NCBI RefSeq assembly: GCF_900107455.1
Contig: NZ_FNQB01000001.1
Coordinates: 2,666,001-2,730,000, forward strand
DNA: 64,000 bases
Source of the DNA: Asanoa ishikariensis
GTDB lineage: Bacteria > Actinomycetota > Actinomycetes > Mycobacteriales > Micromonosporaceae
Reading direction: 5' to 3'
Shown: piece after piece, positions 2,934 through 61,218 of the stretch
Numbering within the stretch: position 1 is the first letter of the stretch
Layout of the letters: each line of letters begins with the position of its first letter
The notes under the pieces: model-generated
What the model was told of the DNA's origin: nothing
Seen by the model: the letters and a program-made list of their open reading frames with translations, nothing else
Database searches by the model: none
Translations under genes and position numbers: made by a program

Positions 2934-4121
2934 ATGGCGAAGAGCCAGTACCTACGCACCAAGCCACACCTCAACATCGGCACGATGGGGCATGTCGACC
3001 ACGGCAAGACGACCCTGACCGCCGCGATCACCAAGGTCCTCGCCGAGGCCGACCCGGCAACCAACCGGTTCGTCGCCTTCGACGGGATCGACCGGGCTCC
3101 GGAGGAGACCGCGCGGGGCATCACCATCAACATCGCCCACGTCGAGTACGAGACCGCGACGCGGCACTACGCGCACGTGGACATGCCCGGCCACGCCGAC
3201 TACGTGAAGAACATGATCACGGGGGCGGCGCAGGTGGACGGCGCGATCCTGGTCGTGTCCGCGCTCGACGGTGCGATGCCGCAGACCCGGGAGCACGTGC
3301 TGCTCGCCAGCCGGGTCGGGGTGCCGCACCTCGTGGTGGCGCTGAACAAGGCCGACGCGGTCGAGGACGCCGAACTGCTGGACCTGGTCGAGCTCGAGGT
3401 TCGGGAACTGCTGTCCGAGTACGGCTTCCCGGGCGACGAGCTGCCGGTCGTGCGGGTGTCCGCGCTGCGGGCGCTGGAGGGCGACCCGGTGTGGACGCGG
3501 TCCGTCGTGGACCTGCTCGACGCGGTCGACCGGTACGTGCCGGTGCCGCGCAGGGCCGTCGACGAGCCGTTCCTGATGCCGATCGAGAACACGCTCACGA
3601 TCTCCGGCCGGGGCACGGTGGTGACCGGGGCGATCGAGCGCGGCACCCTGCGGGTCGGCGACCAGGTCGAGGTGATCGGTCTGGGCGACACGCTCCAGAC
3701 GGTCGCGACCGGGCTCGAGACGTTCGGCAAATCGCTGGTCACGGCCGAGGCCGGTGACAACGCGGCGATCCTGCTCCGTGGGGTCAAACGCGACCAGGTG
3801 CAGCGCGGCCAGGTCGTGGCGGCGCCCGGTTCGGTCACGCCGCACCGCCGGTTCACCGCGCGGCTGCACGCGTTGACCGCGGCCGAGGGTGGGCGGCACA
3901 CGCCGTTCCTCGCCAACTACCGGCCTCAGTTCTACTTCCGGACCACCGACGTGGCCGGGGCGATCGAGCTGGGGGAGGGGGTCACCATGGTCATGCCCGG
4001 TGACACGGTCGACCTGACCGTCGAGCTGAGCCGGCCGGTGGCCATGCACGTCGGGCTCGGCTTCGCCGTCCGCGAGGGCGGCCGGACGGTCGCGGCGGGC
4101 ACGGTCACTCACATCTCATAA
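2934..4121 (+). CDS. tuf: Elongation factor Tu, divergent stand-alone paralogue
   Basis: A 395-residue EF-Tu, the GTPase that brings aminoacyl-tRNA to the ribosome. G1 is GHVDHGKT (residues 19-26), the switch I region has RGITIN, G3 is DMPGH and G4 is NKAD. Domains II and III run to the usual C-terminal [16 protein letters not shown]. It differs clearly from a housekeeping actinobacterial EF-Tu: Met replaces the usual Cys in DCPGH, and domain II lacks a few residues. It stands alone without fusA or rpsG/rpsL, unlike the main tuf gene. Streptomyces carry similar divergent copies (tuf3), linked to stress expression and elfamycin tolerance; the same role here is inference. Confidence 0.92.
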
Positions 4122-50479: not shown

Positions 50480-51106
50480 GTGCGGCTGCGCGAAGAACTG
50501 TTCGTGCTCGGCTTCGACAACGCCGGCAAGCCGGCCGTTCACCCGGAGAGCCTCGACATCGGAGTCGCCGGTGCCCGGCTGGTCGAGCTCGTGCTCGCCG
50601 GCCGGGTCGGCGTCTCCGGTGGTCGGCTCGGCGTGATCGAGGCGGTGTCGACCGGCGACGCCGAGACCGACGCCCTGCTGGCGGCGATCGGGCGCGCGAC
50701 CAAGCCGCCACCGCTGGCCGGGGCGCTGAACCAGCTCCGCACCGGAGCCGGCGACACCGTCCGGGCCGACCTGCTGGCCGAGGGCGTGCTCACCAAGGTC
50801 GCCCAGCGCCGGCTCGGGCTGCTGTCGGTGACCCGCTACCCGGTCGACGAGACGGTGGTCCGGTCGATCACGGTCCGGATGTGGTACGCGGCACACGGCC
50901 GTTCGCAGCCCGACGAGCCGACCGCCGCCCTGTGCGGTCTGGTGCACGCGGTGCTGCTGCACGACCACGTCTTCGTCGCCATGCCGCTGGCCGGGCTCGA
51001 CCAGCGCCTGCGGGAGATCCGGGGCAAGCTGTCCGACCCGGTGCGGGAGATCATCGATGCCGTCGGCACGACGGTGGCGAGTGCGGCGTTCGCGATCTAT
51101 CGCTGA
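50480..51106 (+). CDS. GPP34 (GOLPH3-like) family protein
   Basis: A 208-residue GPP34 protein. The start is the family sequence LREELFVLGFDNAGKPAVHPESLDIGVAGARLVELVLAGRV (quoted in part), and the later GVLTKVAQRRLGLLSVTRYPV corresponds to the beta-hairpin and basic region that in eukaryotic GOLPH3 binds phosphoinositides. Actinobacterial members are often near tellurium-resistance or membrane genes; their role is unknown. The GTG has GGGGAGGG upstream. Its stop is 18 bp before the ATG of the leuS leader peptide, whose promoter overlaps this gene's 3' end. Confidence 0.88.
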   Translation: MRLREELFVLGFDNAGKPAVHPESLDIGVAGARLVELVLAGRVGVSGGRLGVIEAVSTGDAETDALLAAIGRATKPPPLAGALNQLRTGAGDTVRADLLAEGVLTKVAQRRLGLLSVTRYPVDETVVRSITVRMWYAAHGRSQPDEPTAALCGLVHAVLLHDHVFVAMPLAGLDQRLREIRGKLSDPVREIIDAVGTTVASAAFAIYR

Positions 51107-51112
51107 CCGGGG

Positions 51113-51118
51113 TATTAT
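51113..51118 (+). promoter_or_regulatory. -10 element of the leuS leader promoter
   Basis: TATTAT, a near-perfect -10 hexamer, is followed by 6 nt and then the ATG of the leader peptide. The transcript is therefore probably leaderless and begins with the leader ORF. Confidence 0.65.
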
Positions 51119-51124
51119 GCCCCC

Positions 51125-51163
51125 ATGGCCAGGGCCTTCCTGCTCCTTATCGAGCCGTGCTGA
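51125..51163 (+). CDS. leuS leader peptide (Leu codons in tandem)
   Basis: A 12-codon ORF, MARAFLLLIEPC, with three adjacent Leu codons (CTG CTC CTT). It starts right after a strong -10 box and ends 26 nt before the terminator stem. Ribosome stalling at these codons under leucyl-tRNA shortage would report the need for leucyl-tRNA synthetase. The arrangement is that of classical amino acid operon attenuation. Confidence 0.7.
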   Translation: MARAFLLLIEPC

Positions 51164-51213
51164 CGCGCTGACGCGACCGGCACGGCTACCCCTCCTGTGT
51201 GAGGGGCTTTTTT
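51153..51213 (+). promoter_or_regulatory. Attenuator of leuS (pre-hairpin and terminator)
   Basis: A first hairpin pairs AGCCGTGC (51153-51160, inside the end of the leader ORF) with GCACGGCT (51180-51187). One base later the terminator stem CCCCTC/GAGGGG (51189-51206) is followed by CTTTTTT. A stalled ribosome on the Leu codons would cover the first arm. The competing antiterminator is not obvious by eye. Confidence 0.65.
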
Positions 51214-51303
51214 ATGCCCTTCTTAGCTTGATCAAAACCGCCGATCATTCACCCCGCGCGACGCGGTGCTGGCCCTGACGATGAAAATACCGAGGTGGCG
51301 AAC

Positions 51304-54165
<2,862 letters not shown>

Positions 54166-61022: not shown

Positions 61023-61218
61023 GGCGACGTCGCACCGGGTTCCGCGAAAACCCGGTACCGCCGCCGTTCGCCCGCCGTACCGCGAGATCTCCACCCGCTC
61101 CGTCCCTGGCGTCCCTTCCCCGGTGCCAGGCATGGGGGCGGATGGGGATCTGGCGGTACGGCGAGCGATGCAGCCGTCTGGCACGACGGAAGACGGCGGG
61201 TCACTGGGGGGACAACCG

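Follow-up and report, generated by a model that had tools for sequence, protein, structure and literature searches.

The question raised by this locus is how leuS, the gene of leucine--tRNA ligase, is controlled in Asanoa ishikariensis. In the window, by which we mean the whole stretch of 64,000 nucleotides that was analyzed, leuS is preceded by a short ORF with Leu codons and by two hairpins, in which the initial annotation had seen the parts of ribosome-mediated attenuation. All of these parts were found and are conserved, and our data support this interpretation. The leuS leader is very probably a ribosome-mediated transcription attenuator sensing charged tRNA-Leu, and we consider this the best reading because the Leu ORF, the box of a leaderless promoter, the overlapping hairpin and the terminator are all present and conserved. 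The features of the locus are the following.

51113..51118, forward strand: -10 box TATTAT, read directly in the sequence and conserved in the family loci.
51125..51163, forward strand: leader peptide ORF (leuL), MARAFLLLIEPC and a stop codon, read directly, with homologous ORFs in relatives.
51140..51148, forward strand: Leu codons CTG CTC CTT, the last two being candidate control codons according to codon and spacing counts in 179 leaders.
51153..51162, forward strand: region 1, 5' arm of the putative pause/protector hairpin, holding GCCGTGC and two stop-codon bases (folding, covariation).
51178..51187, forward strand: region 2, 3' arm of the putative pause/protector hairpin, containing GCACGGC (folding, covariation).
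51189..51206, forward strand: predicted terminator hairpin CCCCTC-CTGTGT-GAGGGG (folding, terminator scan, covariation).
51195..51200, forward strand: CTGTGT, loop of the terminator; candidate for antiterminator pairing with GCACGG (51180-51185) and for a hairpin-stabilised pause (pairing energy, YG step).
51207..51213, forward strand: U-tract CTTTTTT (sequence, family alignment).
51214..51219, forward strand: conserved RTGYCY (here ATGCCC) directly 3' of the U-tract, fitting the G-10/Y-1/G+1 elemental pause signal (family alignment).
51304..54165, forward strand: leuS, leucine--tRNA ligase, presumed controlled gene (TIGR00396, 886 bits versus a cut-off of 548).

The near-perfect -10 box claimed by the initial annotation was confirmed, TATTAT being separated by 6 nt from the ATG at 51125, and the predicted transcription start is the A of this ATG or a neighbouring base, which would make the transcript leaderless. 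The ORF contains 12 codons with three consecutive Leu codons, as had been described, and a stop codon at 51161-51163; its last codons fall inside the first hairpin, in which 51153-51162 and 51178-51187 form 10 bp. The terminator starts one base past this hairpin, and its arms CCCCTC (51189-51194) and GAGGGG (51201-51206) are followed by a run of six T. RNA beginning at 51125 has a folding energy of -40.8 kcal/mol (z -3.63), and none of 200 shuffled sequences was equally stable. Also, this is the sole terminator-like site within 50700-51700, where 0.4 were expected from shuffles. The fold, the z-score and the covariation presented below all agree with the proposal of a hairpin overlapping the ORF end and a T-tailed terminator before leuS. 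The start of leuS itself is most likely the ATG at 51304.

The gene upstream of the leader belongs to the GPP34 family and ends at 51106, so that the leader promoter abuts the stop codon of this gene. No -35 box was recognisable at the locus, and none was conserved in the aligned leaders. Between 50000 and 52500, neither a T-box nor any other Rfam family was matched up to an E-value of 1. In the 9.1-Mb genome, the pattern GGGGNTTTTTNRTG has a single occurrence, at the leuS leader, and the narrow pattern GGGGNTTTTT has 4 (reversed control, 3). A covariance model built from Micromonosporaceae leaders (R1) returned no second copy of the leader in this genome up to an E-value of 10. Elsewhere in the window, an mraW RNA motif (Rfam RF01746) was detected at 61069-61171 on the forward strand, with 61.4 bits for a gathering threshold of 50.

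Conservation of the Leu run and the terminator in relatives had been proposed as a check, and it was borne out within the Micromonosporaceae. A DNA match to the leader at an E-value of 0.01 or better was obtained in 125 of the 150 genomes of the family (25 gave none), and 110 loci with 104 distinct leader sequences were analyzed, the 15 genomes whose matches were weak or partial being left out. In all 110, leuS lies downstream, and the box, the ORF, the stem and the terminator are kept in front of it. A TANNNT box precedes the start of the short Leu ORF by 6 nt in 63 loci and by 7 nt in the other 47; the script favoured ORFs with such a box, yet dropped no locus. The leader peptides are mostly 12 residues long and end like LLLTEPC or LLLSEPC, some being shorter (e.g., MARAFLLLT). 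Across 42 aligned family sequences, CT-CTT, GCCG, CGGC, CCCCT and the last GGG are invariant. The start codon is in frame with the Leu run in 178/178 anchored loci, a set that was selected by the ORF, with none of the 110 family loci lost. The spacing from the last Leu codon to GCCG is exactly 5 nt in 166 of 179 leaders.

Covariation was studied in 100 aligned sequences, whose alignment was fitted to the model and hence leans towards it. Over both helices 98.7% of the cells are paired, and this value falls to 45-55% when the partners are slid. Two-sided changes were observed in 8 of the 14 pairs, amounting to 67 cells, a level reached by 0 of 500 shuffles. The strongest covariation concerns the fifth pair of stem 1 (C-G in 62 sequences, U-A in 34, U-G in 4). 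These changes indicate that both helices are RNA structures under selection.

The leader extends well past the family. With stricter filters, R1 matched 125 of the 296 genomes of the class at an E-value of 0.01; no match was obtained in the 20 genomes listed for one family (f2) of the same order. We examined 87 class-level loci, which form part of the R1 matches, with a script that required both leuS and a leader ORF preceded by the box, and the 18 loci that failed were then read by eye. A total of 81 precede leuS, 69 according to the script and 12 as judged by eye, the latter including a locus cut at its start (L223) and one with a single Leu codon (L228). Among the other 6, one is at a contig end (L182), one precedes ilvB (L254), one fits neither description (L257), and three (L250, L255, L256) resemble one another. 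These three are weak R1 matches, around 351-463, with a short ORF containing Ile codons (VPQHLMIIN* in L250), a stem and a T-rich terminator. For the genes that follow, the matches to threonine/serine dehydratase families are weak: in two of them, pyridoxal-phosphate dehydratase families are matched weakly, and in the third at an E-value of 3e-6 only. Possibly, the three leaders attenuate a dehydratase gene in response to Ile.

Named genomes were also scanned with a pattern, which returned at least 119 stretches, and 80 loci were examined among the matches listed. The genera among these matches are Streptomyces, Micromonospora, Catellatospora, Plantactinospora, Actinoplanes, Paractinoplanes, Hamadaea, Jiangella, Serinicoccus and Wenjunlia. 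Within this listed set, leuS follows within 800 nt in 75 of the 80 loci, the other 5 sequences ending too soon, and a leader ORF with its box is present in 79/80; in 36 of these 79 ORFs the peptide is exactly MRAVRLLLSEPR. R1 also matches genomes whose leader is exactly this peptide (L188, L189, L190, L192, L193, L197, L201), with E-values of 3e-12 to 9e-12. One genome (G411) has two leuS-type leaders at separate places, each before a leuS-like gene (L198 and L199, the former with Ns after the terminator), and possibly carries two leuS genes.

The attenuators of the leu and trp operons of E. coli and Salmonella comprise a leader peptide, a 1:2 hairpin and an intrinsic terminator. The leuS leader resembles them by its leader peptide with cognate codons, its 1:2 hairpin and its intrinsic terminator, and differs by its predicted leaderless start, its synthetase target, its control codons (CUY, not CUA) and the lack of a strong 2:3 antiterminator among the pairings found. 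CUA is the control codon reported for the leu leader of these species (PMC1183508). T-boxes of Firmicutes, and those known before ileS in Actinobacteria (PMC1262725), likewise place a synthetase gene under the control of tRNA charging, as we propose here; unlike them, the leuS leader has no Rfam match, and its sensor would be a translating ribosome.

The closest known systems are those of Streptomyces. The initial annotation had suggested that a leaderless leader and a synthetase target set the locus apart, a view that does not hold, since the same layout has been published for Streptomyces leuS (PMC1262725; PMC8079986). In S. lividans TK24, the leader peptide LeuL2, MRAVRLLLSEPR, lies upstream of leuS, is known from RNA-seq to be leaderless, and is followed by a hairpin and uridines (PMC8079986). 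Leader peptides were also described there before alaS, thrS and trpS, thrL being leaderless as well (PMC8079986). The A. ishikariensis locus shares with leuL2-leuS a 12-aa Leu leader, a hairpin with a U-run and the leuS target, and its predicted start would be leaderless as well. It differs by the peptide (MARAFLLLIEPC here), by the stem (GCCGTGC/GCACGGC here, GCCGCGC/GCGCGGC there) and by a shorter apical part. The window element is an orthologue of the leuL2-leuS attenuator and thus an element of known kind. Classical leuS attenuators with an antiterminator and a terminator were predicted in S. avermitilis and S. coelicolor (PMC1262725); these also have a leader ORF with Leu codons and a terminator before leuS, whereas the antiterminator hairpins reported there have no covarying counterpart among those we looked for. 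A literature search, largely of papers accessible without subscription, returned no report of a leuS leader for Micromonosporaceae.

The scheme that we infer for the start site in this genome, the ribosome footprint, the response to Leu-tRNA and the read-through would be as follows. Transcription would begin at the ATG of the 12-codon leader, and a ribosome would initiate directly there. When charged tRNA-Leu is ample, the ribosome would complete the leader and depart, and region 1 would pair with region 2. The 1:2 hairpin would slow the RNA polymerase, and the terminator would then form, so that most transcripts would end some 90 nt short of leuS. If charged tRNA-Leu is scarce, notably the reader of CUC/CUU, the ribosome would halt at CTC-CTT. 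The leading edge of a ribosome was assumed to lie about 12 nt from the A-site codon. The edge of the stalled ribosome would therefore cover the invariant GCCG of region 1 and prevent the 1:2 hairpin. The freed region 2 would interfere with the terminator and leuS would be read through, perhaps by the weak candidate pairing of 51180-51185 with 51195-51200.

This last step was searched for in the window, in the 110 family loci and in 179 sequences, and no strong or covarying antiterminator was found by pairing, permutation or partition-function tests. The remark of the initial annotation that the antiterminator pairing is not obvious was therefore justified: none was established, and the weak candidate lacks covariation. 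Region 2 (GCACGG, 51180-51185) can pair with CTGTGT (51195-51200) in the window at -4.8 kcal/mol. In the register of the window, this pairing has an A-C mismatch in 68 of the 110 family loci. Real combinations of region 2 with the terminator arm and loop are weaker than swapped ones (-6.59 versus -7.05 kcal/mol), and permutations were at least as good in 100/100 cases (96/100 within groups). Region 2 with the terminator arm and loop was thus not retained as more than a weak candidate antiterminator, and the Leu run with GAGGGG was set aside too, its support in the permutation test being marginal.

Partition-function folds of the 179 sequences gave the terminator as the main form whether the ribosome was absent, stalled at the final Leu codon or placed on the stop codon, with mean shares of 0.90, 0.97 and 0.95; the share was below 0.5 in 17, 7 and 8 sequences, respectively. 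This dominance of the terminator, whatever the modelled state of the ribosome, favours another explanation, in which a constitutive partial terminator sets a fixed low level of leuS and the leader peptide no longer regulates. The behaviour of other leaders points the same way, and it counts against the attenuation reading of leuS: in S. coelicolor, mutation of the control codons of the ilvB leader is described as having no effect, and for the ilvB and leuA leaders together the mutated codons are said to have no effect or one unlike classical attenuation (PMC1262725). Nevertheless, conservation across families extends to the Leu codons, the CTT identity (174/179), the reading frame and the 5 nt up to GCCG, none of which a passive terminator needs. 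We regard a constitutive terminator as unlikely, and retain ribosome-mediated attenuation.

A kinetic effect, namely pausing, would be a more plausible means of control than a strong antiterminator. A YG step lies 10-13 nt past stem 1 in 110/110 family loci and in 67 of 69 others, although YG steps are frequent in this loop anyway; the distance agrees with the published distance from hairpin to pause (PMC12288461). The end of the terminator is also distinctive. In 102 distinct family sequences the post-stem consensus is N T T T T T [TC] R T G Y C Y, with T at +9 in 101, G at +10 in 102 and C at +12 in 98, and conservation fades after +13. When -1 is set at +9, the last G of the stem becomes G-10 and +10 becomes G+1. 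G-10/Y-1/G+1 is the published elemental pause signal, together with a downstream duplex (PMC12288461). This signal is matched by 50/50 distinct end sequences of the family and by 42/62 from other families. Among the named loci listed, G+10 occurs in 16/16 with a GCCGTGC-type stem and in 2/64 with a GCCGCGC-type stem, mostly Streptomyces; since only 2 of these 64 have it, G+10 is not common to all leuS attenuators among the matches listed. From these alignments, the terminator end may act as a pause signal.

We considered, and rejected, a further small reading frame opened by the RTG that follows the U-tract, for which GAGGGG would serve as Shine-Dalgarno sequence: the triplet is ACG in L200, L215, L221 and L229, G+10 is missing in 62 of the 64 GCCGCGC-type named loci listed, and in every fourth family locus, which we viewed, the frames found there are short and mutually unlike. 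About 170-180 nt upstream of the ilvB gene of A. ishikariensis (L414), a GC-rich, hairpin-like inverted repeat is seen by eye, followed by TTTTTGTGCCCGGA / ATTTTTGTGCCCGGA. The string ATTTTTGTGCCCGGA is nearly the one seen in relatives just after the terminators of leuS leaders, and attenuator terminators more widely may share this post-U-tract motif.

The codons of the leader contrast with those of the gene. Of 179 leaders, 174 have CTT and 5 have CTC as their final Leu codon, and the penultimate one is CTC or CTT (CTY) in 165/179 and CTG in 14. In the window, the Leu codons of leuS are CTG in 66/66 cases. The CTY share is 34% in 43 other window ORFs, selected by a GC3 script and not by annotation (p 4.7e-12 versus leuS), and none of the 27 window ORFs with at least 30 Leu codons is as low as leuS. 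Parts of leuS from 29 of 30 family loci, our own included, contain 716 Leu codons, distributed as 698 CTG, 5 CTC, 0 CTT, 6 CTA and 7 TTG. Likewise, 34 complete leuS genes among the 80 named loci listed use CTY in 64 of 2532 Leu codons, compared with 40.7% in their neighbours.

Control genes of the same genome, some of whose frames were counted from stop to stop, use CTY freely, so that, among the genes compared, leuS alone avoids it. CTY makes up 17/31 Leu codons (55%) in the main EF-Tu and 40/96 (42%) in rpoB (p 1.5e-13 for both together versus leuS), 28/85 in IleS, 25/79 in ValS and 26/59 in MetG. The CTY avoidance of leuS runs opposite to the codon usage of highly expressed genes, and these five genes rule out that the CTG-only leuS is a mere high-expression bias. 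A general trait of leucine genes is contradicted by leuA (13/40) and ilvB (18/44). The gene leuS thus seems purged of the codons that its leader senses. Upstream of leuA (L413), we observed a short ORF with Leu codons CTC CTG CTT, leuA itself using CTC; this ORF is possibly the LEU element of PMC1262725. The window carries a second EF-Tu gene (2934-4121, forward strand, 626 bits) with 13/37 CTY, unlike the Leu codon mix of the main, higher-scoring copy (G000:C2:1100418).

A strict link between the leader and CTY avoidance was not retained. In the 18 genomes, out of 21 sources, that yielded a leuS ORF, the CTY fraction of leuS was 0-0.36 in 12 with a leader and 0.04-0.34 in 6 for which the script found none, and these ranges overlap; R1 showed that the script had overlooked the leaders of L271 and L282. 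Selective-charging theory holds that leaders favour the codons most sensitive to starvation, which for Leu in E. coli leads to CUA (PMC1183508). CUU, CUC and CUA were named as the codons that vary greatly in an E. coli gene under leucine starvation (PMC3783181), and the leader codon choice is therefore of the starvation-sensitive kind.

Taken together, these features lead us to a tentative model, somewhat less likely to be right than wrong, in which the switch would be autogenous, gauging LeuS activity through one Leu isoacceptor. Stalling would occur at CUC/CUU in the leader, and the purged leuS would stay translatable under this stalling. In Micromonosporaceae and in 42/62 end sequences of other families, excluding the Streptomyces type, the terminator would be fused to an elemental pause, so that pausing, not a strong antiterminator, would buy the ribosome time for the decision.

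The conserved codons could alternatively act as RNA, the run CUYCUU pairing with the 3' arm of the terminator for antitermination or sequestration, like the proposed LEU element of leuA. In the window, GCUCCUUA can form 8 pairs with UGAGGGGC, including two wobbles, by hand count. Real pairs are slightly better than swapped ones, permutations being as good in 3/100 cases and in 12/100 within groups, and both loci whose terminator is CCCTCC/GGAGGG (L232, L247) have CCCTCC in the leader too. These statistics are marginal, however, and the pairing is weak in several loci (-3.5 kcal/mol in L100, -5.2 in L190, -5.3 in L080). Moreover, stalled ribosomes would mask these very codons and give the wrong sign of control, which makes this reading highly improbable. 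Finally, the terminator does predict a short stable RNA of roughly 90 nt, but the idea that it is a trans-acting small RNA, with leuS mainly under its own promoter, is scarcely credible given that the leader precedes leuS in 81/87 class loci examined and in 75/75 examined named loci with enough DNA among the matches listed, and is single-copy in its own genome according to R1.

Ribosome-mediated attenuation thus accounts best for the leuS leader. New here are the contrast between CTT/CTC in the leader and CTG in leuS, and the pause-like terminator end, which is found in Micromonosporaceae and not in Streptomyces. A little-studied leuS attenuator of Streptomyces is now placed in many actinobacterial families, with a covariance-tested structure that lacks an Rfam match. 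Also, the codon contrast allows the selective-charging idea, which is based on E. coli, to be tested in bacteria of high GC content in which CTC is freely used by rpoB and EF-Tu.
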